IMG/VR virus record: IMGVR_UViG_3300030116_003621 | Location: 1 to 30,500 of that record | Direction: 5' to 3' (one strand) | DNA length: 30,500 bases | DNA from: a virus | Shown: positions 11,411 through 27,798 of the stretch, piece after piece | How the letters are laid out: every line of letters starts with the position of its first letter | Position numbering within the stretch: position 1 is the stretch's first letter | Program-made: the position numbers and the translations under genes | The notes under the pieces: model-generated | The model's input: the letters and a program-made list of their open reading frames with translations, nothing else | What the model was told of the DNA's origin: nothing | Database searches by the model: none

Positions 11411-11413
11411 AGA

Positions 11414-11644: not shown

Positions 11645-11660
11645 GTTCCTAAAGAAGGAA

Positions 11661-11732: not shown

Positions 11733-11748
11733 GGGTCGGGTCTTACAT

Positions 11749-11774: not shown

Positions 11775-11785
11775 CCAATGCCCAG

Positions 11786-11897: not shown

Positions 11898-11915
11898 GGG
11901 GATTACCGCAGTTGA

Positions 11916-12734: not shown

Positions 12735-12746
12735 TTTAAGCAAAAA

Positions 12747-13895: not shown

Positions 13896-13920
13896 ATTGT
13901 TATCCTCTACGGATGAAATC

Positions 13921-16218
13921 TTAAACTGCACAGGATTCACACTCTCCCTCCTCGGCTTGTTCTAATTCGTTTAACAGGTTATCTAAATTTGGTTTTTCTT
14001 CTACTACCTCATCATTCTTCATATCATGAGTATTTTGATAGTAGGAGGTTTTCCAACCGTACTTATATGTAGTCAAAAAGTCTTGTGCCATGGTGGACAC
14101 TGGAACCTCATTATCAGGATACCTCTCAGGATTGTAACTCCAGTTACCAGAAATTGCCTGGTCAAAGAATTTCTGCATCACAGCAACAACATTAATATAA
14201 CCACGATTGGACTCCATATCCCAAAGGAGCGTATAACTGTTTTTAAGAGATCCATATTGAGGGACAATCTGTTTAAGAGGCCCCTTTTTTGACTTCTTAA
14301 CGGACAGGTAGTCTCTAGGTGGTTCGATTCCATTTGTTGCGTTAGACACAACGGAACTGCTCTCCGATGGCATCTGTGCGGACAGTGTTGAGTGCCGTAA
14401 ACCGTATTCGGAGATAGATGCTCTAAGAGACTCCCAATCATGTTCTAACTCCTGTGGAGAAATTTCGTCTACATCCTTCTTGTATGTATCGATGGGAAGG
14501 ATTCCATCAGCATACTTAGTGCGACCAAAGTCTGCACACCAACCTTTCTCTTTAGCCAATGCGTTTGAAGACTTCAGAAGGTAATACTGGAAAGATTCAG
14601 AGAGTCCATGAACTGCATCCCATGCCTCTTGTGAATCATAATTAAACCCAAGTTTAGCAAGATAGTGTGCCAGACCAATAAAACCGATTCCAAGGGATCT
14701 CCGTGCCTTTGTAGCACGTTCTGCTGCCCTTACAGGATACTCTTGATAGTCAATCAATTCTTCCAGTCCACGAACCGATAGATCACAGAGGTTTTCTAGT
14801 TCTTTATCAGATTGAACTTTTCCAACGTTGATAGCAGAAAGGATACACAGTGCAATCTCACCATACTCATCATCAATATGATTGATAGGATCCGTGGGAA
14901 GAGTGATCTCCTGGCAGAGATTACTCATGTTTACTTTATCCTTAAATGAAGAGTGAGAATTACAATGATCGATATTCATGATATAGACACGACCAGTCTC
15001 TGCACGTTCTTTTAGGAGGTCCAGAATGAGTTTCTGTGCTCCGATAGTCTTTCTTGGAATAGACTCATCTGATTCATAACCCACATAGAGATCGTCAAAT
15101 GAATCAGTACCAAAAGCATCATACAAACCTGGTACGTCATGCGGTGAGAATAAGCTAATTTCTCCATCCGCAATGAAACGTTCGTAGAAAAGTTTTGAAA
15201 TCTGGATTGAATAGTCAAGTTTGCGAACCCTATTGTCTTCTGTGCCTTTGTTATTCTTAAGAACGATAATGTCCTCTATTTCTTGATGCCAGATTGGAAA
15301 GTGGACAGTCGCTGACCCACCTCGGATACCGTTTTGTGTGCAGCATCGCACAGTTGATTCAAACTTTTTGAGGAAGGGGACCACACCTGTGTGTTGAACC
15401 TCTCCGCCTCGGATCTTGCTGTTGATACCACGGATTCTACCCGCGTTAATACCGATTCCCGCTCTTTGTGCAACATATTTGCCAATTGCCATATCAGAGC
15501 TAAAGATACTATCGAGGGTGTCATCAACATCAACAAGAACACAGCTAGCAAATTGTCGAAGTGGAGTTCGCACTCCCGCCATGATAGGTGTGGGAATGTT
15601 GAGTCGGTGTCTGGAGATTGCGTCATAGTACCTCTTTACGTATGACATGCGAGTATCTTTTGGGTACTCAGCAAAGATTGTGAGGGCAATCATAATATAC
15701 ATGAATTGTGGAGTCTCATAGACTCCTCCACAACTTCTGTCCTGTACTAGATATTTATCTACAACTTGACGTAAGCCAGCATAGGTGAAGTCAAAATCTC
15801 GACCATGATCAATCATGGAATTTGCCTTATCAATTTCCTCCTTTGAATACTTGAGAAAAATATCCTTATCATAAACTTCTTTAGTGGTGCAGTCCATGAT
15901 GTGATCCTCTAAATGAGGAAGTTCTCTTATCTTGCCATATAGACTCTTGCGAAGACTAAACAAAAGAAGACGTGCTGCTACGAACTGATAGTTAGGATGC
16001 TCTAAATCAATCAGATCAGAGGCAGAACGAATCAAAATTTCTTGGATTTCTGCAGTGGTAATTCCGTCATAAAATTGAATACCGGACTGGATCTCAACTT
16101 GACTTGCAGAGACCCCTGCAAGACCCTTTGTTGCCTCTTCAACCATCAAATGCATCTTTTCTAGGTCAAGAGGTTCAATTCTTCCGTCTCTCTTTTTAAC
16201 CTTGGTGCCATTCGTCAT
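13921..16218 (-). CDS. nrdA: ribonucleotide reductase class Ia large subunit
   Basis: It reduces ribonucleoside diphosphates to deoxyribonucleotides. An N-terminal ATP-cone begins KVKKRDGRIEPLDLEKMHLM, so allosteric activity control may remain. The active-site region NLCQEITLPT and the C-terminal TLSAQMPSESSSVVSNATNG are family signatures, and the chain ends ECESCAV with the redox Cys pair that passes electrons to the active site. 765 residues is full length. ATG 16218 overlaps the primase stop (ATGA). No intein or intron is visible. Confidence 0.96.
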   Translation of the reverse strand: MTNGTKVKKRDGRIEPLDLEKMHLMVEEATKGLAGVSASQVEIQSGIQFYDGITTAEIQEILIRSASDLIDLEHPNYQFVAARLLLFSLRKSLYGKIRELPHLEDHIMDCTTKEVYDKDIFLKYSKEEIDKANSMIDHGRDFDFTYAGLRQVVDKYLVQDRSCGGVYETPQFMYIMIALTIFAEYPKDTRMSYVKRYYDAISRHRLNIPTPIMAGVRTPLRQFASCVLVDVDDTLDSIFSSDMAIGKYVAQRAGIGINAGRIRGINSKIRGGEVQHTGVVPFLKKFESTVRCCTQNGIRGGSATVHFPIWHQEIEDIIVLKNNKGTEDNRVRKLDYSIQISKLFYERFIADGEISLFSPHDVPGLYDAFGTDSFDDLYVGYESDESIPRKTIGAQKLILDLLKERAETGRVYIMNIDHCNSHSSFKDKVNMSNLCQEITLPTDPINHIDDEYGEIALCILSAINVGKVQSDKELENLCDLSVRGLEELIDYQEYPVRAAERATKARRSLGIGFIGLAHYLAKLGFNYDSQEAWDAVHGLSESFQYYLLKSSNALAKEKGWCADFGRTKYADGILPIDTYKKDVDEISPQELEHDWESLRASISEYGLRHSTLSAQMPSESSSVVSNATNGIEPPRDYLSVKKSKKGPLKQIVPQYGSLKNSYTLLWDMESNRGYINVVAVMQKFFDQAISGNWSYNPERYPDNEVPVSTMAQDFLTTYKYGWKTSYYQNTHDMKNDEVVEEKPNLDNLLNELEQAEEGECESCAV

Positions 16219-17183
16219 ATCTTCTTCCAGGTGGTAAATTTAAGTTTTGCTTCTAGTCCAGAGTATGTGTTTGATTCTATCACAGACTGCACATCCAGTC
16301 CATTCATTACCATATCATTTATGTCTTTATCATCTATGCTCTCTGGCCAGATGACTACCGACTGACCAGAATCGATGGTCCTAGATATTCGGTTTGTAAT
16401 TTCTCTGTTGCGGGGTTCGTTATCATAAATCCACACAGGATTGCTAATCCCCCAACGACTGATATCAGCATCAGCTCCGCACATAGCAATCGAGTTGCGA
16501 ATGAACGTGCTGTCGAATGGTCCTTCTGTAATATAGACTGGAGCATCTCTTCTGATGTTATCCAATCCGTAGATTTTTGGTGCGTCATCATCAAGCATCA
16601 CGGTAATGTATTTAACAGGGCTAGGATTTATAGATCTCCCCTGAAGTCCAATTAAGTTCTTTTCATAATAAAGTGGAATGATTATTCTCTCTTCATCATG
16701 CTTTGTGTCATCAAAAGTAGGTTTGAGACTGTTTACAAACTCTTTAAAGTTCTGTGCATAATAAAACTTATCAGGATCAAGTTGTCTTGCAGTTAGATAT
16801 CCAGAAGATTTAGGATTTTCAGATGCTTTAGGCAACTTCAGTTTCTTCTTAAACTTAGGTGCCTCAAACTTAAAATTAGGTTCTTCTACTACTGTTGTTC
16901 GACCAGTTTTACCCTCTTTAAATCTTTCAAACACATATTGTTTATGAAGAATAGGATCTTGTTTTTTTAAGAAACTACTAAACGTCATCGAAGCACCACA
17001 GTTGTGACACTTATAGTTAACATCTGCTTTTACTGAGTAAAGGTAACCTCTTGTCTTTGACTTATTCTTATGCGAGTCTCCACAAATTGGACACCGAAAG
17101 TTGTATAGGTTTGGTTTTACTCTTTTAAACCTTTGTAGTTTTGCGGAAAGAAGATTAATAAACTTTGAATCAACGTGATTCAT
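16215..17183 (-). CDS. gp61: DNA primase, T4 gp61-like
   Basis: It makes RNA primers for lagging-strand synthesis with helicase gp41. The N-terminal zinc site is CPIC at 31-34 with YKCHNC at 58-62. The Toprim core starts near VYITEGPFDSTFIRNSIA, where EGPFD gives the metal-binding Glu. 322 residues is close to T4 gp61 (342). ATG 17183 overlaps the preceding stop by 14 bases. Confidence 0.9.
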   Translation of the reverse strand: MNHVDSKFINLLSAKLQRFKRVKPNLYNFRCPICGDSHKNKSKTRGYLYSVKADVNYKCHNCGASMTFSSFLKKQDPILHKQYVFERFKEGKTGRTTVVEEPNFKFEAPKFKKKLKLPKASENPKSSGYLTARQLDPDKFYYAQNFKEFVNSLKPTFDDTKHDEERIIIPLYYEKNLIGLQGRSINPSPVKYITVMLDDDAPKIYGLDNIRRDAPVYITEGPFDSTFIRNSIAMCGADADISRWGISNPVWIYDNEPRNREITNRISRTIDSGQSVVIWPESIDDKDINDMVMNGLDVQSVIESNTYSGLEAKLKFTTWKKI

Positions 17184-17571
17184 TCACAGACGCTACCACT
17201 GGTCGCACTATAGCACTTTCTGCTGACGAAAGCAATGGTTTGATCATCTTGATGGATTGCGGATTAGTAATTATCAGTACTGCTCCCAGTGCTCCGATGC
17301 CAATCCAAAGTTTCCGTTCCAGTAATGATAATCGTTGAGTAACGTTGTCATGATCGCTGTCCATTTTATCACGGAGTTTGTCGATCTTATCAAACAATAT
17401 TTCGTCGATCTCTTCCTGCTTCGTAATTCTCTGCTCATGGACGGCTAACATCCTAGACACATTATTATTTACCTCTGCAATTTTTTCTATGGCAGAGTCT
17501 AACCTTGTGACTAGTGTCTCAAAGTTTTCTAATCTTGTTTCTAGAATTGCAACCTTAACTTCTTCTTCCAT
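17170..17571 (-). CDS. coiled-coil protein with one C-terminal membrane helix, 133 aa
   Basis: Residues about 8-95 are heptad-like and charged (LETRLENFETLVTRLDSAI; DKLRDKMDSDHDNVTQRL), followed by a hydrophobic segment LWIGIGALGAVLIIT and a short tail. The layout resembles tail-anchored phage membrane proteins, but no family is certain; a spanin or holin partner is possible yet unsupported. ATG 17571. Confidence 0.65.
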   Translation of the reverse strand: MEEEVKVAILETRLENFETLVTRLDSAIEKIAEVNNNVSRMLAVHEQRITKQEEIDEILFDKIDKLRDKMDSDHDNVTQRLSLLERKLWIGIGALGAVLIITNPQSIKMIKPLLSSAESAIVRPVVASVNESR

Positions 17572-17755
17572 CGTCGGGTTTCCACATTTTTCTTAGACCC
17601 TTTTGATAGATATATCTTTTTTTCTTTTTGACAGGAGGGTCGTCCCCTGCCTCAACAGTGCCAGCAATCTTTCCACCACCAACATTATTAGTTGGTTGCT
17701 CATACAAGTTAGAACGAATAATGTCTAATACTTTATCAATTGCTTTGTTTTGCAT
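17555..17755 (-). CDS. small basic protein, 66 aa
   Basis: Unrecognised. A helix (KAIDKVLDIIRSNLYE) precedes a Gly-rich linker (NNVGGGKIAGTVEAGDD) and a basic tail (PPVKKKKRYIYQKGLRKMW). It overlaps the following gene by 17 bases and the preceding one by 20. The basic tail could bind nucleic acid (inference). Confidence 0.6.
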   Translation of the reverse strand: MQNKAIDKVLDIIRSNLYEQPTNNVGGGKIAGTVEAGDDPPVKKKKRYIYQKGLRKMWKPDDGRRS

Positions 17756-18128
17756 TGTAGATTTTGTAAAGTTCAGTCAAACATAACATATCTACTTGAA
17801 TATCATGAATATCAGAATGTGGATATTCAGGAAATCTGCCAAGAAAAACAATAAAGCTTTTCATGGCAGACCATAATTCTCTTTCGATTTTGAAAAATAA
17901 CATCGGAGTTGTTGCTTCACCAAAGATGTTATAAAGAATAATAAAGTGATTTAAAAGAAGATGGGTCTTAAGTTGACCTGTATTCTTATATCGTTTCAAT
18001 AGTCTTTTGATGTATTTGAAATGATTTAAATCCCTATCAAAATCTTCCTTTGTGACCGCTTGAGGATTTTCATAATGTTTAATGGCAAACAAAAGGAAGT
18101 TATCCTCATTCAACTCATTAAAAATCAT
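17736..18128 (-). CDS. hypothetical protein, 130 aa
   Basis: Unrecognised, all-alpha looking and rich in aromatic residues (FNELNEDNFLLFAIKHYENP; KTHLLLNHFIILYNIFGEA). ATG 18128 follows the virion-type gene stop by 17 bases. The ribosome site is poor. It heads the small-gene group before the primase. Confidence 0.65.
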   Translation of the reverse strand: MIFNELNEDNFLLFAIKHYENPQAVTKEDFDRDLNHFKYIKRLLKRYKNTGQLKTHLLLNHFIILYNIFGEATTPMLFFKIERELWSAMKSFIVFLGRFPEYPHSDIHDIQVDMLCLTELYKIYNAKQSN

Positions 18129-18145
18129 ATATCATTACGTATCAA

Positions 18146-18703
18146 TTACTTAGCATCAGGGAAAGCAGGTACGTTGCCAGTCGTGATTCCAGACATTGCA
18201 ACCAAGACTTCTTTCTTAACTCTCAGAGTTCCGTGCTGGTCAGTGTAAGTAGTAATACCAACCCAACCTACACCAGTTTCATATGCAGTGGCATTCGCAT
18301 TCTGAGCACCAGTGGTAGAAATACCATAAACAAAGGTGTCCTTGTCACCATTAAGTTGACTATAATTTGAATCAACAATAGTGCTCTTAGGACACTGAGA
18401 AATAGTAAATGATGTGCCAATTGGTCCAATTGCACCACCAGTTAAGTTCGCAGTCGATCCAATCGTTAATTGAGTTGTACTTGCGATACCAACAATTACA
18501 GCATCACCAAAATAAGTAGTAAACCCATTAGATGTATCAGCGTCTCTAATTCCAAATCTGATGATATCACCAACTTGTGCTTCAGTATGTCCAGCACCTG
18601 CTGCACCAAAAGTGGTTCCTGTGCCAGTTACTACGTTAGTGCTGTAGTCAAGGGTCACAGTGCCATTAGAGTTCAGGTTATCATTATTGCCCCAGAGTGC
18701 CAT
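18146..18703 (-). CDS. probable virion structural protein, 185 aa
   Basis: A Gly/Thr-rich, beta-looking protein (MALWGNNDNLNSNGTVTLDY; VVTGTGTTFGAAGAGHTEAQ), the style of cyanophage virion proteins. ATG 18703 has GGAAGAG before it and a perfect late promoter core TATAAATA 33 bases upstream, so it is expressed late. I cannot say which virion part it forms. Confidence 0.7.
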   Translation of the reverse strand: MALWGNNDNLNSNGTVTLDYSTNVVTGTGTTFGAAGAGHTEAQVGDIIRFGIRDADTSNGFTTYFGDAVIVGIASTTQLTIGSTANLTGGAIGPIGTSFTISQCPKSTIVDSNYSQLNGDKDTFVYGISTTGAQNANATAYETGVGWVGITTYTDQHGTLRVKKEVLVAMSGITTGNVPAFPDAK

Positions 18704-18735
18704 GTTTCTCTTCCGAAAATTTATTTGCTATAAGA

Positions 18736-18743
18736 TATTTATA
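18736..18743 (-). promoter_or_regulatory. late promoter TATAAATA
   Basis: An exact T4 late promoter core on the minus strand, 33 bases before ATG 18703, overlapping the T run of the terminator at 18741-18774. Confidence 0.75.
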
Positions 18744-18774
18744 AAAAAGGAGACCTTGTAATTTGGTCTCCTTT
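18741..18774 (-). terminator. Rho-independent terminator after the 18778 gene
   Basis: A perfect 10-bp stem AAAGGAGACC/GGTCTCCTTT with a 9-base loop is followed by T residues on the minus strand. The T run is shared with the late promoter. Confidence 0.9.
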
Positions 18775-18777
18775 GAA

Positions 18778-18987
18778 TCATTCTGCTGCTTCTTCGCGTG
18801 TTTTAATTGCTTTAGAAACAACTTCTAGAAGTTGATCATCCATATCTGTCTTAGTCAACTTAACTGCCTTAGCAAGAATAACAAGACAAATCTCAATGAG
18901 TTTCTCACCCAATTCTTCATTCTCTGGAATCTTTTTGACCGCATCAGAAATTACCTTTGATGCTATTGGGAGTAAAAATGCAAGCAT
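18778..18987 (-). CDS. small helical protein, 69 aa
   Basis: Unrecognised. It begins MLAFLLPIASKVISDAVKKI, a hydrophobic N-terminus, and continues as amphipathic helices (LGEKLIEICLVILAKAVKL). GAGGTT lies before ATG 18987. A strong terminator follows directly. A single membrane-associated helix is possible. Confidence 0.65.
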   Translation of the reverse strand: MLAFLLPIASKVISDAVKKIPENEELGEKLIEICLVILAKAVKLTKTDMDDQLLEVVSKAIKTREEAAE

Positions 18988-19018
18988 GATGAACCTCGGT
19001 AGTATATTCTATATATCG

Positions 19019-19879
19019 TCAATCTTTATTAGAAACGTATCTACCTAACTTTTTGTCGTAACGTTTGACTTCACCAGGACGAAGACGATTCTTTGCTTCC
19101 TTTGCTTTATCATAAAACTTACCAAACTTCATCTTACGGTCTGCTTTAGCAAACTGTTTCTTCTCCTTGTCATACCTATCATACTTAGTTTCTTCAGAAA
19201 CTTTCTTCTTTCTACCTTGACAGTGTGCTCTCTGAGAAAATCCTTTTGGATTATTACAGTCGATAGATTTCTTATATTTGTCAGACCAACCCTCATTCAT
19301 TTTCTTGGTCTTCTTTTTCATTGAGTTGATATATTTTCTATAAACTGCTGCTTCTGAAGTCTTTCCCATTTCTCTTGCTCTCTGTTCCATGGCAACTGCT
19401 GCCTGGATTTTATGAGCATGAGATCTAGATGAATTGCGAATCTTCGTTACAGATGCTTTGGCAGTTGCAACATCCTTGAATCCTAAACCATGAATAGTTC
19501 CCTTGGGATTCTCGTCAGTGTAAAGATCAGAATGCTTCTTAGAGTTTGCGGGTTGTCCTTTCTTTCTAGGAATACGAGGATTTGATTCCTCGTTTACATC
19601 ACCAGACGCATCTTTCTTGTGTAGTCTACTATAGAGATGCTTATGAAGAGGTTTTGCTCTCTTCATAATCTTATCTCTTTCAGAAAAATCTGCTGCTTCT
19701 TTTGCAACTTTCTTCTCAGGGAGTTTCTTATGCTTGGTAGATGCAAAATCTTTTACATCACTCTTTTTCATGTCAGCAGCTGCCTTCGCAGTCTCAGGAG
19801 TAGTAGGTGCCATCTCACCTTTTTGAATGGCACGAACTATTCCGAAGAACCGTTGCTGCTTTTTAGATACCGCAGGCAT
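19019..19879 (-). CDS. DUF3008/DUF5824-like protein, 286 aa
   Basis: The N-terminus (MPAVSKKQQRFFGIVRAIQK) matches the short DUF3008-type motif of phage proteins. Residues about 98-190 (PRIPRKKGQPANSKKHSDLY, then TIHGLGFKDV and AMEQRAREMGK) match a domain I recall from algal-virus and cyanophage proteins (DUF5824); the numbers are from memory. The rest is Lys-rich, ending KRYDKKLGRYVSNKD. Function unknown. ATG 19879 overlaps the previous TAA by one base (TAATG). It is in the late block and could be a capsid-internal protein. Confidence 0.65.
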   Translation of the reverse strand: MPAVSKKQQRFFGIVRAIQKGEMAPTTPETAKAAADMKKSDVKDFASTKHKKLPEKKVAKEAADFSERDKIMKRAKPLHKHLYSRLHKKDASGDVNEESNPRIPRKKGQPANSKKHSDLYTDENPKGTIHGLGFKDVATAKASVTKIRNSSRSHAHKIQAAVAMEQRAREMGKTSEAAVYRKYINSMKKKTKKMNEGWSDKYKKSIDCNNPKGFSQRAHCQGRKKKVSEETKYDRYDKEKKQFAKADRKMKFGKFYDKAKEAKNRLRPGEVKRYDKKLGRYVSNKD

Positions 19880-21696
19880 TACTTCTTCTTGGTATCGATA
19901 ATGGCACCCTTACCATACTTAGATGTGATGGATGCTCTTACAAAGTCCATTGCTCTGGATGATGCTTCTCTTGACTTTTTCTTTTCAGCATCAGACATGG
20001 GACCGGTTTTTACACCCTTGGCAGGACGATCATAACGTTGATTACCAGCAACCCCACCACGTTCCATACGACGATCTTTCATCGCATCCGATGCTTCTTC
20101 ACCCATTGCCTTGACAGGTTCTGCTTTTGTCTTATCAAGTTGCTGCTTTCTCTTCATAGCAATCATCTTATCAAGAGTTGCCTTCTTTTTCTGCATTTGT
20201 ATTTCTTGAGGAGACATTTCCTCACCCATATGGTCAGCAGCCTTATAACGCTTGTCACCTGCTTTATATCTCTGATATGCAGGAGTATTTCCTTTCTTGT
20301 CAGCAGCAGTGACTACCATACGATTGTCCTTTGGTGCTTCCTTCTTAGCAGGAGTTCCACCATAAACTGCCTCATCCATCTTACGTGCTACGTTTCTAGC
20401 ACCTCTAGATACTGCTCTTGCTGCTTTACCAATACCTCTCTTGAGTTTAGCACCAATTCTGCTAAGCATTCCTGGTCCTTTCTTCTTAGGAGCAGAAGAT
20501 GATGATGAATCAGAATTCGAGGATGAAGAATCAGAGGATCCAGAAGAACCTGTACTTCCTCTCTCATATCCTTTAGAGAACTCTCTACCTGCTGCTTTTG
20601 CTCCTCTTACTGCAGCACCAGCAGCATATCCAGCACCTCTTGCTACTGCCTTACCTGTTTTCTTAACAGCAGACTTTACTCTGTCCATGACAGATGCTCT
20701 AGAAGGACGACTCATTAATCGCTTACGTGCTTCTGCACCAGCATCTTGCTCCAGAAGAATACTGATTGATAAATCAATTGATTCGCAAAGATTTTGCTGA
20801 AGAACCTCAAGATCCTCATCTTTCTCCACTGCTTCAGCAAAGAACTCCTCTACAACTTCATTAATCATTTTATCAGAGATGAATCTCAGTTCTTCATCAG
20901 TGATCTCTTCAAGGATATCAAAGATTTCAACTGCTTCAATTAGTTCACCACCAATCTCTTCTACAGATTCACCCATTTTAGGATTAATCTTAACAATATT
21001 CTTTACTTTCTTTTCCTTGATGGGTTTTTCATCCATACTATCTGTCATGACTTCAGGGATGTATTCCTCTTTCTTATACTCAGGATGATCATCCATCTTC
21101 ATACCACGTTTCTTTTCAAGACGTGCCTTTCTTTCAGCAGTTCCTTTCTCAGGATCCATGTCACGAACACCTTCGGACATCTTACTCTTGATTGCCTTAC
21201 CGATTGCCTTACGACGCTTCATCAAGTATGAGTCGGTGCTATCTTTTTTACCATCGTTATTGACATCACCATCTTCCTTACCGACAGGATCAAGTCCTTC
21301 CTTCTGAGTTTTCTTACCAACAAACTTATCAAATTCTGCTTGCTGCCTCTTTTTACGCTCAGCAGAAGAAATACCATAGTCATGACCAAAGTCTTGACCA
21401 GTTGAGGAGGTGCCCATTTTCTTTCTTTGTGCGGCAAGACGTTTCTCTCTTCTTGCTTGCATTGCTGCTAAAGAATCTGCCTCGGTAACCTCAACTTCCT
21501 CAGAGGACATACTACCTGTTGGACCATCTCCAAAGTGTGGGTTGCTCATAGAACCCATCTTCTTCATATCTTTACGTGCCTTTTCATTATTTTTCTGACG
21601 TTTTTTCATATCAGTTTCAAGATATGAATCGTCTTTCTTCTCTGCAATCTGTTCTTTATAGACCTTAGAGAGATCTTTCAAATGAATTCCAGACAT
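19879..21696 (-). CDS. large basic low-complexity protein, candidate capsid-internal protein, 605 aa
   Basis: No family recognised. It is mostly Lys, Arg, Glu and Ala, with an EF-hand-like loop at 144-155 (DVNNDGKKDSTD), an acidic helical part (EIFDILEEITDEELRFI) around 250-300, a histone-H1-like Lys/Ala/Arg stretch (KKTGKAVARGAGYAAGAAVR) near 340-380, a long Ser-rich linker, and a second basic stretch (KLKRGIGKAARAVSRGARN). TAATAAATA lies 31 bases before ATG 21696, so it is late. The composition suggests a DNA-binding core or internal protein; this is inference. Confidence 0.65.
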   Translation of the reverse strand: MSGIHLKDLSKVYKEQIAEKKDDSYLETDMKKRQKNNEKARKDMKKMGSMSNPHFGDGPTGSMSSEEVEVTEADSLAAMQARREKRLAAQRKKMGTSSTGQDFGHDYGISSAERKKRQQAEFDKFVGKKTQKEGLDPVGKEDGDVNNDGKKDSTDSYLMKRRKAIGKAIKSKMSEGVRDMDPEKGTAERKARLEKKRGMKMDDHPEYKKEEYIPEVMTDSMDEKPIKEKKVKNIVKINPKMGESVEEIGGELIEAVEIFDILEEITDEELRFISDKMINEVVEEFFAEAVEKDEDLEVLQQNLCESIDLSISILLEQDAGAEARKRLMSRPSRASVMDRVKSAVKKTGKAVARGAGYAAGAAVRGAKAAGREFSKGYERGSTGSSGSSDSSSSNSDSSSSSAPKKKGPGMLSRIGAKLKRGIGKAARAVSRGARNVARKMDEAVYGGTPAKKEAPKDNRMVVTAADKKGNTPAYQRYKAGDKRYKAADHMGEEMSPQEIQMQKKKATLDKMIAMKRKQQLDKTKAEPVKAMGEEASDAMKDRRMERGGVAGNQRYDRPAKGVKTGPMSDAEKKKSREASSRAMDFVRASITSKYGKGAIIDTKKK

Positions 21697-21706
21697 GGTG
21701 ATACAA

Positions 21707-22930
21707 CTACTTCTTTTTCTTATACTTATTTATTAAATTCTTTATACCAGCAGTTCCCGTTAGTCTCATTACATATTCACGATGAGCATCAGTTCCTACA
21801 AGTCTTTGATCAGAGGGAACACCAGATGGACCTGGATAGTTTTGTACTGCCTCCATCACATCACGAATCCAGGATTTAAACATATAATCTTCTTTGGTAA
21901 CGCAGATAAGATGATTTGTTCCACGACGAACAATCTTACCAATCAAACCAGTATGAAGACTTTCTACTATATCACCAATATTAAAAATGTTTCCTGAGAC
22001 ATAATTATCTCTTAAACCTTTAGGATCACACTTAGGAGCAATCTCCCACATTTCTTTAACTTCTTTCTTTGCTTTAACTCCCATACCAGATCGGACTGCA
22101 TCAAACAACGCCCGAGTATCACCGTCATTTAGATCTTTTGGAGTCCCACGACGGAAAGCATCAAAATCTCCATCAACAACTGCCTTTCTCATCTTGGATG
22201 CTGACATTCCCTCAACACCTTCAGCATCTGCATCTCTTACACCTGCAGAGATAACACGAATGTTTTCAAAGTCATAAAGATCACCATTGTACTTGTTTGC
22301 AAGGTTCTCAAACTCTGCTTGACGATCCGATCCTACAATAATATTTACATCTTTATATCCACCCTCGGATGCTGTGGTAAGAACATTAAAAATAGATCTC
22401 ATCTCATCATCATTAACAATGTTCTCTGAATAATCAGGGAACATCTTTTTCATAAAAGAAATCTTCATATCAGGATCCAACGGATTTTTCTTAGCATCCT
22501 GCGATCGTGAGGGATATATTTTTAAGTCTCCACCCTCTGATGCTTTCTTTGCAGCAGATAGAAGTTTACCGTGACCTACAGTTGGAGGATTAAAACGTCC
22601 AAATGCAACAGTCAGAACCCCTGAAGTCTTTGCATCAATCTTCTCTCCCTCACCTGCTTTTGCTGCCACCGTACTAGTTTTTTTAAGTGCAGTCTTCTTA
22701 GGTTCTTCCTTAGGTTCTGGTTTTGCTGCTCTGGGTCTTGCAGTTGGTTCATCTTCTACTTTCTTTTTCTTTTTATCAACAAACTTCAGTTTACCATCTT
22801 CAGTAGTCGCAACAAATTTTCCACGGGAGTCTAACCAACCACCGTGACCATCACTCTTGAGGTTCAGTTTTTTCGCCTGCATTGATGCTTGCGACTGCGC
22901 CTCATTCAGAAACTGAAAGAAACTTTTCAT
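21707..22930 (-). CDS. nucleotidyltransferase-like protein with capsid-targeting N-terminus, 407 aa
   Basis: GRFNPPTVGH at 111-120 is the HxGH-type nucleotide-binding motif of cytidylyl/adenylyltransferases, and GMSASKMRKA near 240 corresponds to the ISxTxxR block. These enzymes join a nucleotide to a small phosphorylated substrate; the substrate here is unknown. The first residues MKSFFQFLNEA mirror the targeting peptide of T4 internal proteins (MKTYQEFIAEA, cleaved after xxE by the gp21 protease). A Lys/Pro-rich linker (about 52-100) joins the two parts. CTAAATA lies 24 bases before ATG 22930. Confidence 0.75.
   Translation of the reverse strand: MKSFFQFLNEAQSQASMQAKKLNLKSDGHGGWLDSRGKFVATTEDGKLKFVDKKKKKVEDEPTARPRAAKPEPKEEPKKTALKKTSTVAAKAGEGEKIDAKTSGVLTVAFGRFNPPTVGHGKLLSAAKKASEGGDLKIYPSRSQDAKKNPLDPDMKISFMKKMFPDYSENIVNDDEMRSIFNVLTTASEGGYKDVNIIVGSDRQAEFENLANKYNGDLYDFENIRVISAGVRDADAEGVEGMSASKMRKAVVDGDFDAFRRGTPKDLNDGDTRALFDAVRSGMGVKAKKEVKEMWEIAPKCDPKGLRDNYVSGNIFNIGDIVESLHTGLIGKIVRRGTNHLICVTKEDYMFKSWIRDVMEAVQNYPGPSGVPSDQRLVGTDAHREYVMRLTGTAGIKNLINKYKKKK
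21727..21735 (-). promoter_or_regulatory. candidate late promoter TAATAAATA
   Basis: Minus-strand TAATAAATA lies inside the last codons of the nucleotidyltransferase-like gene, 31 bases before ATG 21696. Confidence 0.55.
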
Positions 22931-22953
22931 CTATATTGATAATCCTTATACAT

Positions 22954-22960
22954 TATTTAG
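22954..22960 (-). promoter_or_regulatory. candidate late promoter CTAAATA
   Basis: TCTAAATAA on the minus strand overlaps the stop of the previous gene, 24 bases before ATG 22930. Confidence 0.45.
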
Positions 22961-23778
22961 ACTTCATATCTAATAGAGATTGCATTTTGCCTAACTCCAT
23001 TCTTTTTACCACGACCCTTAAGTGAGAGTCTAACTCCAGCAATTTTCATAACGTCTCTGACAACTTTGTCTGTGATTGGTTTAACACCATCTTCAGTAAA
23101 TAAATGATCAGCTGCTCTATCGTCTCCATTAAAAAGCATATTACCTGTCATACATTCTTTTGTTAATTCAAACTTGAAAGTTTCATATGCAACATCCCCT
23201 GTTGGTGCTTTCTTTGATCCTAAAACCTCTTGAAGTTGTTCATTAATTCCACCAGATTTTTTAACATCACCCATCAATCTCTTTGCTGTGGATTGATCCA
23301 TGGTTCCCATTCTATTTTCAAATTTATTTGATATATTTTCAAATATCAATTGCAAATTTCCAAGAGAATCGATACTCATATTATTAGTACCAAGATCTTG
23401 TGCAACTTTTTTTAAGACCTTGGTGAAAACTTGAATGGATTTATCAACTCCAGCACTAGTTAATTGATAAGACTTTCCCCACTTCATTGAGCACTTATAT
23501 TTTTTATTACCTACCTTAAAAAGTATATCAGTTTTAGGTTCCTCACCACCACCACTCATTTTTTTAAATGATCCAAAATAGTCTTGACGATTTCTTTCAC
23601 CATTAGGAGCTAATTCTAAAACTATATCTTCAGCCTTTTTCTTTATATCTGCTGGTATCAGAGACCATCTATTAGCAGCATCAGCAAAGTTTGATTCTTG
23701 CTCAGCATTTCTTTGTAGGATTCTAGATGTTGCAACATACATTACTGCATGTTCAAATTGTAGACCCTTGTTTGCCAT
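22957..23778 (-). CDS. PD-(D/E)XK nuclease-like protein, 273 aa
   Basis: Not a recognised named gene. PKTDILFK (D84) followed by KYKCSMKWGKSYQLTSAG (S97, K99, Q105) resembles a PD-(D/E)XK core, in which a first acidic residue is followed by (D/E/S)xK on the next strand. An early Glu (QFEHAV, E9) could be the helix-A acid. Cleavage activity is not proved: the D/E of DxK is Ser here. ATG 23778 lies only nine bases from a TAATAAATA motif. It sits next to a second protein with the same kind of motif. Confidence 0.55.
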   Translation of the reverse strand: MANKGLQFEHAVMYVATSRILQRNAEQESNFADAANRWSLIPADIKKKAEDIVLELAPNGERNRQDYFGSFKKMSGGGEEPKTDILFKVGNKKYKCSMKWGKSYQLTSAGVDKSIQVFTKVLKKVAQDLGTNNMSIDSLGNLQLIFENISNKFENRMGTMDQSTAKRLMGDVKKSGGINEQLQEVLGSKKAPTGDVAYETFKFELTKECMTGNMLFNGDDRAADHLFTEDGVKPITDKVVRDVMKIAGVRLSLKGRGKKNGVRQNAISIRYEV

Positions 23779-23787
23779 TTTTATCTT

Positions 23788-23796
23788 TATTTATTA
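23788..23796 (-). promoter_or_regulatory. candidate late promoter TAATAAATA
   Basis: Minus-strand TAATAAATA includes the TAA stop of the 23794-25224 gene. It is close to ATG 23778, which would give a very short leader, so this one is weaker than the others. Confidence 0.4.
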
Positions 23797-25224
23797 TGAT
23801 ATCTTTGCGTGAGGTGAGAATCTTTTCCCTACTTTCATACCAAGATATAACATATCAGTCCAGAACTCTTTATCTTTAGAATTATTTTTTAAAGAGTCGT
23901 GAAAAAAGTTAAGTGTCATCAGTTTAACAATTGCATTTCGTTTATCCTTACTATACACAGCATAAAGATTACTCTCAAATTCTGAGTAAGGAACAGATTT
24001 TTTAAAATATTTCCCTAAAAATTTATACATTTCTGAATATTTTTTTGCCTCTTTTTGATATTCTACAATAGATTGTGGATATTTGTTATGATCATTGATG
24101 AATGAAGTTGGTCCAGATTTTTTCAAAATATCTTGAATCATCTTAACAGGTGCTTGACCACCTTGAGCTGCAGGTGTTGCTTTAATTGCAGTATTGAAAC
24201 TTAAGTTTTGTCCTGCTCTTGTGATATTAATTGAATATTCACCTTGCCTTCCCAGTTTTACATATGTTGTTACTTTATCTCCGATAAAAATATTATCAAT
24301 ATCAAATGATATATCTTTCATATCGAAAGTTTCAATTTCACCTATTTTCATGGTAGATGTGTCGATATTAACAAATTTTAATTTAGCAGATTTATTAGAT
24401 GCAATTTTTTTAAGAGACAATCCAATTAGTTTTTTCTCTTTAAATAAATTTATGAGTAGATTATTTAATTCAACTAAATTTTGAGTCTTTGGATTAATAT
24501 TTTTTTCTATTTCTTTTTTAACTTTATCTCCCTCATAGACAGCCCAAATATCAGATGGATTCCAAGTCGTGTAGTTTCCTACTGGTTTTATTGGATCAAG
24601 TGATCTGGCAACATTTTTTATTTGTTTAGAAAAGAAAGTAACAAAATCATCCTTTCCATATACAAAGACATCCCACTTCGCACTTTGAAATTTTTTTAAG
24701 AATTCTCTTTGTTGCTCAAAGTAACTATGCGTCCACTCTTTTAACCTGCCTTCATACTTTTTACCAAATAATTTTTTCAATTCTTTGGCAGTCTCCGAGT
24801 CATCCAGTATGTCTTCTTTTTTATCAAATTTTTTATTATTATGCAATACTTGATTTAAAACAACTGTGGTTCCCTCTTCTTGAATTTTTGTAGGTATGAC
24901 TCCACCACCTCCAATATCTACATCCTCTTCTATATCAAAAGTGATAGTTTGCGGACCCACTTTAACATATGGCACACCATCATTTTTAAAAATATTAATG
25001 CCCGTAAACTTACCCTTTATTTCATTTACTATTCCGTTTCTAAATTTATTCAATTCACTTTTTTTACCAGGAGGATTTTCGACGTATATTTCTAAACCTC
25101 CTCTACTTTTATAAACTTCAAACAACGTTTTATTATATGACACCTGTTCTTTAGTATTTACAGGACCAATTTCATATAAAAAATCCTCAAGATTTGATAT
25201 ATTTGCTTTAATTTTTGGTGCCAT
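23794..25224 (-). CDS. PD-(D/E)XK nuclease-like protein, 476 aa
   Basis: Not a recognised named gene. WNPSDIWAVYEG at 221-232 (D225) and LIGLSLKKI at 266-274 (S270, K272) fit the PSD...GxSxKK pattern of restriction-type nuclease folds. The long N-terminal part includes a Gly-rich loop (DVDIGGGGVIP), and the C-terminal third is alpha-helical and Lys-rich. ATG 25224 is preceded by a TAATAAATA motif and a short inverted repeat (25225-25243). A head-packaged or late nuclease is one reading; a structural use of the fold is another. Confidence 0.55.
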   Translation of the reverse strand: MAPKIKANISNLEDFLYEIGPVNTKEQVSYNKTLFEVYKSRGGLEIYVENPPGKKSELNKFRNGIVNEIKGKFTGINIFKNDGVPYVKVGPQTITFDIEEDVDIGGGGVIPTKIQEEGTTVVLNQVLHNNKKFDKKEDILDDSETAKELKKLFGKKYEGRLKEWTHSYFEQQREFLKKFQSAKWDVFVYGKDDFVTFFSKQIKNVARSLDPIKPVGNYTTWNPSDIWAVYEGDKVKKEIEKNINPKTQNLVELNNLLINLFKEKKLIGLSLKKIASNKSAKLKFVNIDTSTMKIGEIETFDMKDISFDIDNIFIGDKVTTYVKLGRQGEYSINITRAGQNLSFNTAIKATPAAQGGQAPVKMIQDILKKSGPTSFINDHNKYPQSIVEYQKEAKKYSEMYKFLGKYFKKSVPYSEFESNLYAVYSKDKRNAIVKLMTLNFFHDSLKNNSKDKEFWTDMLYLGMKVGKRFSPHAKIS

Positions 25225-25243
25225 AATACTTTTTAAAAGTATT
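25225..25243 (-). repeat. AT-rich 9-bp inverted repeat at the start of the 25224 gene
   Basis: AATACTTTT and AAAAGTATT with one base between, placed between the late motif and the ATG. It would form a hairpin in the 5' leader. Confidence 0.5.
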
Positions 25244-25248
25244 TATTA
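25240..25248 (-). promoter_or_regulatory. candidate late promoter TAATAAATA
   Basis: CATAATAAATA on the minus strand, directly after the tRNA-Ala 3' end and 16 bases before ATG 25224. The same ten-base context (ATAATAAATA) precedes the gene at 23778. Confidence 0.55.
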
Positions 25249-25321
25249 TGGAGTTATGGGGACTCGAACCCCAAACCTCCTGCGTGCAAAGCAGGCGCTC
25301 TACCAGTTGAGCTATAACCCC
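25249..25321 (-). tRNA. tRNA-Ala (TGC)
   Basis: Acceptor GGGGTTA/TAACTCC with the G3-U70 pair that identifies Ala tRNAs, anticodon loop TTTGCAC on CCTGC/GCAGG, T arm TGGGG-TTCGAGT-CCCCA and discriminator A. Confidence 0.95.
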
Positions 25322-25336
25322 GTGAACCCCGAAGGG

Positions 25337-25528
25337 TCAGTGATCGTGATCTTCAGGAAGATTTGCTTCAATCTGTTCATCCAGTTGTCGGATGAACTCA
25401 CGGATAGTTGATGCTCTTTGTGATGGAAATTCGTAACTATCTTGTCTGGTATATTGGAACAAAGCAGAACGAATCAATGCTGCATCGTGAATATTCAGTT
25501 TCAGATCAATGTTAATGTCGCAACTCAC
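25337..25528 (-). CDS. small helical protein, paralogue of the next gene, 63 aa
   Basis: Starts at GTG 25528 inside a GTGA overlap. LNIHDAALIRSALFQYTRQD aligns with MNNAVLLRHTLFMYTKDHPD of the 25525 gene, and STIREFIRQLDEQIE aligns with LKIREISNQLDKEIE, so the two arose by tandem duplication. The C-terminus is His/Asp-rich (PEDHDH). Function unknown; the helical pattern could form a dimer. Confidence 0.7.
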   Translation of the reverse strand: MSCDINIDLKLNIHDAALIRSALFQYTRQDSYEFPSQRASTIREFIRQLDEQIEANLPEDHDH

Positions 25529-25710
25529 AGGTTCTCCTCCTTTTGTTTAATGTCAAACTCTCTTTCAATTTCTTTATCTAACTGGTTAGATATTTCTCTG
25601 ATTTTTAGAATAGCACTATCAGAGAAGAAATCAGGGTGATCTTTTGTGTACATAAAAAGAGTATGACGTAGAAGAACTGCGTTATTCATACTCATCTCTA
25701 GATTGATCAC
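25525..25710 (-). CDS. small helical protein, paralogue of the previous gene, 61 aa
   Basis: Starts at GTG 25710 (GTGA overlap with mazG) or at the ATG four codons later. Shares NNAVLLRHTLFMYTK and IREISNQLDKEIE with its neighbour. No known family. It is cotranscribed with mazG. Confidence 0.7.
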   Translation of the reverse strand: MINLEMSMNNAVLLRHTLFMYTKDHPDFFSDSAILKIREISNQLDKEIEREFDIKQKEENL

Positions 25711-26111
25711 AAATCTCCCTCCTTACGATTTTCAGATTTATGAACATCAAACTCACCACCAGGATAACGTGCTTTGAGTTTGTCCACATTCATTTCTAGC
25801 ACCTCATCAAAGGATGTGTCAAGTGCCATACATGCCTGTGCCAGATACCAGCAGATGTCACCCAGTTCACGTTTCATATGAAAAACATTATCTTCATTAT
25901 ATGGTTTACCTTGGAAGAGAATTTTTTTCACAACTTCAGTAAACTCACCAGACTCTGCGGTAAGACCAAGAGCAGCAGTGAGCAACTGAGATGTATTAGT
26001 TCCAGTTACTTCAAGTTCTGCAAGACGAGATCCCATGGCACCATAGTCAAGACTAGGTTCACTGGTAACTCCTTTTACAAATTCAACATACTTTTCGGTG
26101 TCTACAGTCAT
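25707..26111 (-). CDS. mazG: MazG-type nucleotide pyrophosphohydrolase, 134 aa
   Basis: It hydrolyses (d)NTPs to monophosphates and, in some MazG proteins, affects (p)ppGpp; it is widespread in cyanophages. The metal-binding ExxE...ExxD pattern is E53, E56 and E82, D85 (LTAESGEFTEV; KRELGDICWYL). The C-terminal KARYPGG turn is also typical. ATG 26111 overlaps the previous stop (ATGA). Early expression is likely from the promoter at 26470. Confidence 0.9.
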   Translation of the reverse strand: MTVDTEKYVEFVKGVTSEPSLDYGAMGSRLAELEVTGTNTSQLLTAALGLTAESGEFTEVVKKILFQGKPYNEDNVFHMKRELGDICWYLAQACMALDTSFDEVLEMNVDKLKARYPGGEFDVHKSENRKEGDL

Positions 26112-26425
26112 TTTAAATCAATAGGTTTAGAATTAGATTGGGGAAGGTTTTGTTGAGTTGGTAGTTTCACACCACCAACTTCAATATACTCTACTTCTTT
26201 CCAGCTACCACCAACACCACCGTCCATATTGACTACTATGTCACGGGTGGGAAGTTGCCTGCTATTAGAAACATCAATGATGTCACCGGGCAAAGGATTG
26301 AACATAAAATAGTGTCCATCCCAGTATTTGTTTCTTGTACTCATGAGATTGACTGCATCTCTTTCGATACCGCAGTCAGCAATCTTTTTACCGTCTGGAT
26401 CGAAGACAGAGTAGTATCCGTTCAA
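26108..26425 (-). CDS. hypothetical protein, 105 aa
   Basis: Unrecognised. Starts at TTG 26425 inside TTTTGA, the gp41 stop, with GAGGG as ribosome site about ten bases before. The N-terminus (GYYSVFDPDGKKIADCG) suggests a small beta-rich domain. The first in-frame ATG lies 27 codons in. It is the first gene after the promoter at 26470. Confidence 0.6.
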   Translation of the reverse strand: MNGYYSVFDPDGKKIADCGIERDAVNLMSTRNKYWDGHYFMFNPLPGDIIDVSNSRQLPTRDIVVNMDGGVGGSWKEVEYIEVGGVKLPTQQNLPQSNSKPIDLK

Positions 26426-27798
26426 AACTTAAATCCCTCAAATGATTTCCTTGGTTTTGCTTCCTCGTAATTATACTCTTCCTCCTTACCACTGTCAATG
26501 ATATCATCTTGTGCTGACTGCTCACAATCATACAGACGCATCTTAGCACGATCAATACCAACCACAAACCTCTTAGAAATGGTTGGATCATTATATCGAT
26601 TCTTCAACTGCTTCACCATAATTTGTCCAAGCCCCTCAAGGTCTTCAGTTGAAATAAGGGCAAACATAAGATCAGCAGTAGCAGGGAGACCAAAGGACTC
26701 AGAAGTATCAGTAAGCTCAACATCAGAGCTCCCATAACCAGAACGAGTGGTTTGAGTAGCAGAGACGATTGGTACGTTTGCTTCGCAAGCGAGTCCTCGA
26801 AGTTCTTCAGCAATTGCTTTGACAACTGTATATGAATTGACATTACTGCCTGCGCGATACCTTTCGGAAGCACATATATTAAGGTAATCAACGAAAATAA
26901 TATCAGGTCTAAATGATTTCTTAAGTGCAAGTTCATTAAGAAGTGACCTAAAGTGTCCTGCATGTGCAGATGCCGTTGGATATTCTTTAATAATTAGGGA
27001 TCCTTGAGTTCTGTTTGCAAGTTTTGTCACCTTATCCTCAAACATTACCTTGGGTAGTTCTGTTATCTCCTGGATAGGCACATTGAGAAGATTAGCATCG
27101 ATTCGCTCTGCAATTTTCTCCTCAGCCATTTCAAGCGTGATATATAATACGTTTTTCCCTCCCAAGAGTGCGGAAGATGCCACATGGCACATAAACAAAC
27201 TTTTACCGACACCAGTGCCAGCAAGAGCAATGTTAAGTGTCTTGTTCGGAAGACCACCCTTCGTAATCTTGTTGAAGTACTCAAGGTCGAACGGGATGAG
27301 GTCTTCTTTTTTGTGATATGCTTCGTATCTTTCTTCATAATCAATCAGGTAGTCGTGACCGATATGTGTGTCAAATGAAACTGCTAAAGCATTTGACAGA
27401 ATGCTAGGAATAGCACCCCTATCTTTTTCTTTACTTTCTCCATCTGCAAGAGCAATGGATTCCATCAGTGCCAAATAGATAGCACGATCCCGACACCACT
27501 TCTCTGTAGTGTCACACAACCAATCATAGTCAGTAGGAACATCCTCAAGATAACTAATCAACTTAGTGATTTCTTGAAAGGTAGTGTCATTAATGTCTTG
27601 TCGTTTTTCTACTTCAATGCAGAGTACTTCTTTGGTTGCTGGTTGATTGTATTCATGAACAAACTTCTCAATCTCTTCAAACACAATCCTCTGGTTTGAA
27701 TCCTCATAATAATCTGCTTTGATAAAAGGAATAACCTTACGAAGATACTCCTCATTGTATAGTAGATTTCTTAGGATTAAAATTTCAACTTTGTCCAT
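26422..27798 (-). CDS. gp41: replicative DNA helicase, T4 gp41-like (DnaB family)
   Basis: It unwinds DNA 5' to 3' at the fork as a hexamer and loads with primase gp61. Walker A is NIALAGTGVGKSLFM, the Walker B region is RPDIIFVDYLNIC, and RGLACEANVPIVSATQ is the next helicase motif. From ATG 27798 it has 458 residues; the frame is open to 27816. It overlaps the hydroxylase gene by 14 bases. Its 3' end carries the promoter at 26470. Confidence 0.93.
   Translation of the reverse strand: MDKVEILILRNLLYNEEYLRKVIPFIKADYYEDSNQRIVFEEIEKFVHEYNQPATKEVLCIEVEKRQDINDTTFQEITKLISYLEDVPTDYDWLCDTTEKWCRDRAIYLALMESIALADGESKEKDRGAIPSILSNALAVSFDTHIGHDYLIDYEERYEAYHKKEDLIPFDLEYFNKITKGGLPNKTLNIALAGTGVGKSLFMCHVASSALLGGKNVLYITLEMAEEKIAERIDANLLNVPIQEITELPKVMFEDKVTKLANRTQGSLIIKEYPTASAHAGHFRSLLNELALKKSFRPDIIFVDYLNICASERYRAGSNVNSYTVVKAIAEELRGLACEANVPIVSATQTTRSGYGSSDVELTDTSESFGLPATADLMFALISTEDLEGLGQIMVKQLKNRYNDPTISKRFVVGIDRAKMRLYDCEQSAQDDIIDSGKEEEYNYEEAKPRKSFEGFKF
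26470..26498 (-). promoter_or_regulatory. fully consensus sigma70-type promoter inside the gp41 3' end
   Basis: TTGACA (26498-26493), a 17-base spacer and TATAAT (26475-26470) on the minus strand, all 12 bases matching. The start near 26463 leads into the 26425 gene, mazG and the paralogue pair. Confidence 0.85.

Follow-up and report, generated by a model that had tools for sequence, protein, structure and literature searches.

In this study we discuss a block of seven genes at 18,146 to 25,248 in the IMG/VR virus record IMGVR_UViG_3300030116_003621, whose positions 1 to 30,500 form the stretch of DNA analysed here (hereafter the window). The window, a contig of a T4-like cyanophage, covers the full 30.5 kb virus record, and that record may in turn be incomplete. 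Overall, our analysis suggests with reasonable probability that the block is a late-expressed module of virion cargo. The nicotinamide mononucleotide (NMN) adenylyltransferase-like protein of the block (NMNAT-like protein) begins with a putative T4-type capsid-targeting peptide, and the gene just upstream of it occupies a slot in which basic, nuclease-like late proteins are exchanged between close relatives. The NMNAT-like protein is an already published core and virion protein of cyanophages; the exchange slot is new here and is the most novel part of the analysis.

Late promoters of the block

Five of the seven block genes have an ATAAATA or CTAAATA motif no more than 60 nt upstream, against two of the 31 other open reading frames (ORFs) of the window taken as genes (Fisher p = 8e-4). 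Named by the length of their products in amino acids (aa), the genes having the motif are those of the 476-aa, 273-aa, NMNAT-like, 605-aa and 185-aa proteins, and the motif-free ones are the 286- and 69-aa genes. The sequence NATAAATA is present in seven copies on the coding strand of the window, four of them upstream of block genes, and in none on the opposite strand; for S-PM2 and phages related to it, it has been published as a late promoter (PMC2984593). The motifs of the block are as follows.

25240..25247, minus strand: late-promoter motif AATAAATA of the 476-aa gene (motif scan and relatives)
23788..23795, minus strand: late-promoter motif AATAAATA of the 273-aa gene (motif scan and relatives)
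22954..22960, minus strand: late-promoter motif CTAAATA of the NMNAT gene (motif scan and relatives)
21727..21734, minus strand: late-promoter motif AATAAATA of the 605-aa gene (motif scan)
18736..18743, minus strand: late-promoter motif TATAAATA of the 185-aa gene (motif scan)

The association is kept in relatives. For all locus counts we used the best 80 of 227 NMNAT relatives in viral contigs, and these counts ignore kinship among the loci. The motif is found before all 78 usable NMNAT genes and before 72 of 73 adjacent upstream genes, while it is absent before mazG (0/69) and gp41 (0/53); the reverse complement of the motif, as a control, gives 0, 1, 0 and 0 at the NMNAT gene, the upstream gene, mazG and gp41, respectively. 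In the genome of S-SCSM1, 24 of the 48 genes with a virion-protein label have the motif upstream vs 18 of 234 others (p = 5e-11; 1/48 vs 0/234 for the reverse complement), and among ORFs 83-101 it is found at ORFs 89, 90, 91, 92 and 95 only. S-CREM2 shows the same, with the motif before 29 of the 52 proteins detected by mass spectrometry (MS) vs 24 of the 167 others (p = 9e-9). Since the motif is present at the block genes, is kept in relatives and matches the published late promoter, the block is late, within a replication region; the motif and its conservation are observed directly, and late transcription, read from the published NATAAATA motif, is nearly certain. An earlier note on this DNA had claimed late motifs upstream of the main block genes, which is borne out by these counts. 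Its assignment of sigma70 promoters to the neighbouring blocks is not supported by an enrichment: 47 sigma70-like sites are found at 11900-30500, where 50.6 are expected from shuffling. A few of these sites are strong, as is the one with 12/12 at 26498-26470.

At the DNA level, the block is matched best by the Synechococcus phages S-SM2, Bellamy and S-SCSM1, with 73-78% identity over 37-47% of the query. On one side it is flanked by mazG, gp41 and uvsX, and on the other by gp61, nrdA and nrdB (named by eye and from the gene order of S-SM2). The position between gp41/mazG and gp61/nrdA is common to S-SM2, S-SCSM1, S-IOM18, Bellamy, S-SM1, S-ShM2, P-SSM2, S-SZBM1 and S-H9-1; for ACG-2014d and S-RIM8, the gp41 side alone is visible in the stretch examined. 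On re-reading the ORFs of the window, we found the gene layout and the N-terminus of the NMNAT-like protein to be as the earlier note had given them.

A putative T4-type capsid-targeting peptide

21707..22930, minus strand: NMNAT/cytidylyltransferase-like protein, 407 aa, isoelectric point (pI) 9.3 (phrog_395; the S-SM2 orthologue is T4-GC190)
22901..22930, minus strand: putative T4-type capsid-targeting peptide, NMNAT residues 1-10, MKSFFQFLNE followed by A, proposed cleavage after E10 (motif and T4 residue roles)

The start of the NMNAT-like protein, MKSFFQFLNEA, makes it the sole ATG-started ORF of the window matching the scanned motif, and the start MKxxxxFxxE[AT] is kept in all of the 80 best contig NMNATs. 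Among the 75 distinct sequences, F7 and E10 are conserved in 100%, L8 in 95% and F4 in 93%, with residue 9 at 52%; the mean entropy is 0.42 bits over residues 1-11 vs 2.0 bits in the linker 51-104. For the internal protein IPIII of T4, the first ten residues are reported to suffice, with targeting depending mainly on residues 4 and 7, and processing on residues 8 and 10 (PMC9026906). The residues conserved in the cyanophage peptide are thus the positions mapped by T4 mutagenesis, and the match to the T4 internal-protein pattern that the earlier note had seen is present and conserved at residues 4, 7, 8 and 10. Among 14 isolate NMNATs, 11 match a strict pattern (fixed at positions 4, 7, 8 and 10, with a basic residue at 2), and in S-SZBM1 (MRFRQFIIEA) and ACG-2014f (MAMRSFLTFLTEA) the peptide is shifted by one or two residues.

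The earlier note had proposed a search for the N-terminal motif across cyanophages. Scanning 17 whole records (16 cyanophages and T4) with a degenerate DNA pattern gives 21 matches, and none with the reversed pattern. They consist of 12 NMNATs, T4 ipII, ipIII and 61.1, five other ORFs and one 51-residue ORF, the last being probably a chance match; the 12 NMNATs are thus found among 18 cyanophage matches. The five other ORFs comprise three from a family of about 106 residues, PSSM2_115 and S-CREM2 gp6. In T4 only ipII, ipIII and 61.1 are matched, ipI being unmatched. The family of about 106 aa, which starts with MK[TS][FY]xxF[IML]SESVNISGDFNGNLY and carries the targeting peptide, is seen in loci L010 (1716-2036), L200 and L201, and is located near the terminase gene in S-SCSM1; the two copies checked have no late motif within 60 nt.

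The pattern also coincides with virion detection. Among the 219 proteins of S-CREM2 the strict pattern fits four, all of them within the 52 MS-detected ones and none within the 167 undetected, with p = 0.0029, a value that flatters because S-CREM2 was picked in the knowledge that its detected proteins include relatives of tagged S-N03 proteins. A near-identical pattern had been applied to S-SCSM1 before any S-CREM2 sequence was examined. The four are gp6 ('SAM hydrolase'), gp13, gp14 (kinase) and gp154 (cytidylyltransferase), and gp12, labelled Cas9 and also MS-detected, has FASFMAEA at residues 19-26; one peptide is therefore found on five otherwise unrelated packaged proteins, all in the virion table (PMC10665884). 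When the motif is allowed anywhere in the first 32 residues, it fits 6 of the 52 detected proteins and 1 of the 167 undetected, while the reversed motif fits 0 and 3, respectively; one of the six, the baseplate protein gp122, is probably a chance match. In S-SCSM1 the pattern picks two of 282 proteins, ORF91 (the NMNAT, labelled as virion protein) and ORF30 (unlabelled). Taken together, the peptide of the NMNAT-like protein quite probably works as in T4.

As for the enzyme itself, it has the motifs GRFNPPTVGH (at 111) and SASKMR (at 243), and hence intact nucleotidyltransferase active-site motifs, TVGH at 117 and SASKMR at 243; the active-site motifs of NMN adenylyltransferases are (H/T)xGH and one of the SxxxxR type. 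The protein stays below the curated cut-off of CTP_transf_like (17 bits vs 21) and below the NCBIfam cut-offs of TIGR00125 (18.7 vs 27.7) and TIGR00482 (13.6 vs 112.45), and a PDB search with its sequence gives no useful match. Judged from its sequence, we file it as NMNAT-like, not as NMNAT. In S-H9-1, an apparent C-terminal domain of the NMNAT family is found as a separate 84-aa gene (locus L100, 5546-5800) with the peptide-like start MKDFKKLREEA, the catalytic gene being without the peptide.

The NMNAT protein in virions of relatives

That related NMNATs are virion proteins is known from proteomics: the NMNAT/cytidylyltransferase is reported in virions of S-SM1 (PMC3037559), S-SCSM1 (PMC9602691), S-SZBM1 (2 peptides; PMC9146016) and S-CREM2 (3 peptides; PMC10665884). 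In S-SCSM1, seven of the nine genes of the block (ORF89-97) are labelled as virion proteins, including ORF90, which falls in the blastp cluster of the 476-aa protein; the record has 48 labelled genes vs the 45 virion proteins of the paper (PMC9602691), so that labels and MS do not correspond one to one. The 30 proteins detected in S-SZBM1 include _140 (the NMNAT), _139 and _136 (PMC9146016). We hold it very likely that the NMNAT-like protein is present in virions. The virion papers give no targeting signal in the parts available here, and in the open-access literature we found nothing that links the virion NMNAT to a targeting sequence; the T4-type peptide supplies one.

Two other explanations of these data have to be considered. 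The proteins may be abundant late products that adhere to virions or are purified along with them; their role would then be late in the producing cell, such as breaking down host DNA or supplying NAD (nicotinamide adenine dinucleotide), and they would not be cargo. The possibility is raised by the authors of the S-SCSM1 and S-CREM2 studies, and the few cytidylyltransferase peptides, three in S-CREM2 and two in S-SZBM1, would agree with it; conservation of the exact targeting and processing residues is unexpected for contaminants, as is the coincidence of peptide and detection in S-CREM2, where the undetected neighbours gp8 and gp11 have no peptide. We therefore regard co-purification as rather unlikely. 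Alternatively, the peptide may be a head-assembly anchor and the products of the block minor structural proteins of the head, whose enzyme domains are vestigial and which are retained in the empty head. T4 gp61.1, starting with MKTFKEFIKE, is contained in the same gp41-gp61 interval, cyanophage genes annotated as head proteins adjoin the block, and a few ORFs of the structural module (the S-SCSM1 ORF30 family) carry the peptide. Against an anchor, the nucleotidyltransferase motifs are intact, the S-N03 kinase with a peptide-like start keeps a kinase match, if a weak one (22.3 bits, below the cut-off of 31.7), and T4 itself cuts off the peptide and brings its tagged cargo into the cell (PMC9026906), all of which makes the anchor improbable.

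An exchange slot upstream of the NMNAT gene

The slot is the gene 30-49 nt upstream of the NMNAT gene, and its content varies among close relatives. Among the 80 NMNAT loci, 77 have an upstream ORF of at least 100 aa, and 74 have a slot protein of at least 200 aa within 70 nt. These 74, together with 14 reference proteins, make the set of 88 slot proteins, which fall into 13 blastp clusters and, after profile comparison, into ten, between which no similarity is detected; the 74 locus proteins alone also give ten. A single family for all of them was rejected, as profile comparison merges clusters 0+4+5 and 8+12 only. Slots of different superfamilies are found at every level of NMNAT identity, in 16 of 45 pairs at 95% or more, 22 of 35 at 90-95% and 65 of 89 at 85-90%. 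All 88 proteins have a pI above 8.5, vs 12 of 119 plus-strand ORFs of at least 200 aa in S-SCSM1. No credible family is found in Pfam, NCBIfam or PADLOC for the slot proteins scanned. An Asp with a subsequent (S/E)xK is present in every row of the nine further clusters that have two or more members, the motif being a loose one with a free gap, counted without a chance control; the D…(S/E)xK shared by the slot families may show a common fold or convergence.

In the window the slot region consists of two genes, adjoined by a tRNA gene.

23794..25224, minus strand: slot protein 1, 476 aa, invariant E116, P223-x-D225 and S270-x-K272, nuclease-like by motif only (phrog_1462)
22957..23778, minus strand: slot protein 2, 273 aa, invariant E9, D84 and S97-x-K99, predicted HinP1I/HhaI-like fold (phrog_22045)
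25249..25321, minus strand: tRNA-Ala(TGC), which abuts the late promoter of the slot (tRNA scan)

Of the 88 viral-contig relatives of the 273-aa protein, 80 were used, and ten isolate records match it. Its alignment of 41 sequences shows E9, D84, S97 and K99 to be invariant, with Ser97 in place of the acidic residue of (D/E)xK, and in the 31 sequences aligned for the 476-aa protein E116, D225, S270 and K272 are invariant, again an SxK variant. The 'two proteins with nuclease-like motifs' of the earlier note are in this way confirmed, an invariant D…SxK being present in both alignments. PDB searches with the profiles of both proteins give no useful match. The predicted structure of the 273-aa protein has a mean predicted local distance difference test score (pLDDT) of 88.7. 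In a structural second look the model matches HinP1I at Z 9.8 and 8.9 (186 residues aligned, root-mean-square deviation 4.7) and HhaI at Z 6.2, the top value being only moderately above the best Z of 7-8 that is typical for models without a clear match. The next row is unrelated at Z 5.2, and lower rows include I-Ssp6803I (Z 4.2), Hjc and HincII. The model thus points, with moderate confidence, to a PD-(D/E)XK core fold for the 273-aa protein. We consider it likely that the slot proteins are nucleases.

Two candidates in the 476-aa protein were set aside: a PADLOC match to SspH (13.7 bits, 67 residues) and a possible targeting peptide, LEDFLYE at residues 12-18, which reads VEDFLYE in locus L066 and is lost in L186-L188. 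The 273-aa protein has no targeting peptide.

A tRNA-Ala(TGC) is found in 43 of 55 loci scanned (of the 80) and in these is the sole tRNA type, mostly directly before the late motif of the slot; the other 12 have none. In locus L042 (3000-5968) two tRNA-Ala(TGC) flank a 462-aa gene, the second tRNA being followed by the slot gene, as if units of tRNA and late gene had been duplicated or stacked. As a further observation at this locus, a T4-GC71 gene with a KWDG motif, which we take to be ligase-like, may be located between the slot and the NMNAT gene (L006, 7844-8818; L007, 6094-7014; L004, 8719-9627). The S-SM1 copy is Pfam DUF6267 (1.6e-91), and the gene is absent from this place in the window, S-SM2, Bellamy and S-SCSM1.

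The main rival explanation for the exchange treats the slot genes as selfish cassettes of the homing type: their nuclease would cut phage genomes with another allele between the conserved arms (tRNA-Ala/mazG and NMNAT), recombination would copy the slot in, and presence in virions would be incidental. It would account for dissimilar alleles between conserved flanks, seen in 16 of 45 pairs even at NMNAT identity of at least 95%, and for the tRNA-Ala(TGC) in 43 of 55 loci with the tandem order of L042; in addition I-Ssp6803I, a bacterial homing endonuclease having the PD-(D/E)XK fold, is among the structural matches of the 273-aa model (Z 4.2). Against a homing cassette are the late motif before 72 of 73 slot genes, the pI above 8.5 in 88 of 88 slot proteins (12 of 119 S-SCSM1 ORFs), and the virion label of S-SCSM1 ORF90. 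On these grounds we regard homing as unlikely, less so than co-purification.

A module behind the peptide

22781..22888, minus strand: DGHGGW module, about 36 residues, behind the peptide (alignment and profile)

Behind the peptide the NMNAT-like protein has a short module with the consensus DGHGxWxD…VAxT…GxL. A search with its profile yields 21 copies, spread over 14 of the 17 records, where the profile-building rows match by construction, and no copy in T4, S-SZBM1 and S-H9-1. The carriers are NMNATs, the kinase of S-N03, MA01 and S-CREM2 (two copies each), a gp12-type protein in the same three phages, and an 892-aa protein of ACG-2014f. Peptide and module are separable, since the NMNATs of S-SZBM1 and S-CREM2 keep the peptide without the module. 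In the slot region of ACG-2014f (L013, 3430-9978), the 892-aa protein, which has both peptide and module, has as neighbours three genes annotated as DNA methyltransferases and a sigma factor of the RpoD type. The S-CREM2 protein labelled 'CRISPR-associated Cas9' (L195, 7704-10313) is related to an S-N03 protein without a Cas9 match in Pfam, and the label looks doubtful.

Other genes of the block and the window

19879..21696, minus strand: 605-aa basic protein with H1-like stretch (same-position genes: S-SCSM1 ORF92, labelled virion protein, and S-SZBM1 _139, MS-detected)
19019..19879, minus strand: 286-aa very basic protein, pI 10.1, DUF3008-like start under the cut-off (profile scan)
18778..18987, minus strand: 69-aa acidic protein, no late motif (motif scan)
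18146..18703, minus strand: 185-aa acidic protein (phrog_3086; weak match to the head-protein family phrog_613)

For the 605-aa protein, the histone-H1-like stretches of the earlier note correspond to residues 345-605, which are basic and rich in K, A, G and S, with a net charge of about +34; no Pfam histone match is found. Prohead-protease sites in this protein were dropped, as they are not kept in the same-position proteins. The start of the 286-aa protein resembles, by eye, that of S-SCSM1 ORF93, labelled as virion protein. The S-IOM18 counterpart of the 185-aa protein is annotated 'head protein', and the 185-aa protein is probably head structure, not cargo. Elsewhere in the window, at 5273-11859, eight further tRNA genes are found with zwf-, gnd- and plastoquinol-oxidase-like genes (by eye), which are usual host-metabolism genes of cyanophages.

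The block as probable virion cargo

The earlier note had proposed that the block is a set of proteins packed in the head. The late block, the NMNAT peptide and the orthologues or same-position proteins in published virions agree with this; the slot proteins without peptide and the head-type 185-aa protein do not. Protein by protein, the case for cargo is strong for the NMNAT-like protein, moderate for the 605- and 286-aa proteins through their same-position proteins, and weak for the nuclease-like ones, while for the 185-aa protein it is not supported. For the nuclease-like proteins one labelled relative (S-SCSM1 ORF90) stands against one undetected (S-SZBM1_142), and whether the slot proteins are packaged is an even question.

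Several points weigh against the cargo reading. Concerning the slot proteins, a match to the targeting motif is found within the first 32 residues of 1 of the 88 (0.19 expected), this one being the 476-aa protein; the slot protein _142 and _141 of S-SZBM1 are outside the 30 proteins detected (PMC9146016), and Foldseek gives no significant PDB match for the 273- and 476-aa models; the 476-aa model has a pLDDT of 74.5, and its second-look rows stay below Z 6 and mostly cover residues 7-106. To these are added the modest fold score of the 273-aa model and the looseness of the D…(S/E)xK motif. Concerning the peptide and the promoters, the S-H9-1 NMNAT (185 aa), among the 14 isolates, has no peptide, S-SCSM1 ORF30 has the peptide and no virion label, and the NMNAT starts of S-N03 and MA01 are without late motif within 60 nt. 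The virion data are affected by the non-blind choice of S-CREM2, by the excess of S-SCSM1 labels, and by the statement of both groups of authors that abundant proteins may co-purify (PMC9602691, PMC10665884).

With these points in mind, the cargo reading can be put as follows. Late promoters served by a gp55-type sigma factor would switch on the block together with the head genes. The NMNAT-like enzyme, to judge from its N-terminus, would enter the prohead via the T4-type peptide, have its first ten residues removed by the prohead protease through cleavage behind Glu10, and leave with the DNA. Basic proteins of PD-(D/E)XK type (mostly SxK) are exchanged in the slot between tRNA-Ala and NMNAT; the exchange is observed, and nuclease activity is what their motifs suggest. 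They would probably be co-packaged by a route independent of the peptide, and being basic they may bind DNA or a tagged partner. Early in infection they would act on host or rival nucleic acid, and the NMNAT-like enzyme would likely keep up NAD at entry, for example against NAD-depleting defences; NAD-depletion defences and NAD restoration by phages fit such a supply (PMC12774641). Delivery into the cell is possible but stays somewhat doubtful. The rapid exchange of the slot suggests changing targets, such as host defences or rival phages. In its fullest form, which we offer tentatively and find slightly less probable than delivery, the locus would be a rotating arsenal: at a fixed late locus, near-identical phages would exchange basic nucleases of the PD-(D/E)XK type, from about ten dissimilar families, which would be packaged together with a CTS-tagged, NAD-making enzyme and fired in with the DNA as weapons of counter-defence or against competitors.

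Comparison with known systems

The peptide resembles the capsid-targeting sequence (CTS) of T4 IPI, IPII and IPIII, being an N-terminal ten-residue peptide with an aromatic residue (or Leu) at 4, Phe7, Leu/Ile8, Glu10 and mostly Ala11. Like the T4 internal proteins, which are said to be basic (PMC9026906), the cyanophage proteins have a late-promoter motif and are basic, and in other cyanophage proteins a variable cargo is found behind the constant tag. Unlike in T4, an NMNAT-like enzyme is among the cargo, joined in other cyanophages by kinases and the 'Cas9'-labelled protein; the cyanophage NMNAT is a core gene and not hypervariable, and the slot proteins are untagged. Cleavage is established for the T4 internal proteins, whereas the cyanophage NMNAT is likened to them from features of its sequence. 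T4 gp61.1 is in the same interval as the cyanophage NMNAT, but has 54 residues and no enzyme domain, the likeness being confined to the peptide. Cyanomyoviruses are reported to be without alt, modA and modB (PMC2984593), and would thus have no injected ADP-ribosyltransferase of the T4 type.

The 273-aa protein resembles the type II restriction endonucleases HinP1I and HhaI in its predicted fold and in the conserved catalytic-type D and K. Unlike them, it has no sequence match, a Ser replaces the acidic residue of (D/E)xK, it is a late gene of a virus, and no adjacent methylase was recognised in the window, where no search was aimed at methylases.

If true, targeting by a T4-type peptide would explain why the NMNAT recurs in virions, and cargo could be predicted from sequence, for which the four S-CREM2 proteins are an indication. 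The peptide may also offer a simple handle to load proteins of choice into the heads of cyanophages. The exchange slot suggests that an arms race runs fast at a single, defined locus of marine phages, and its nuclease-like proteins are accessible to expression and assay.

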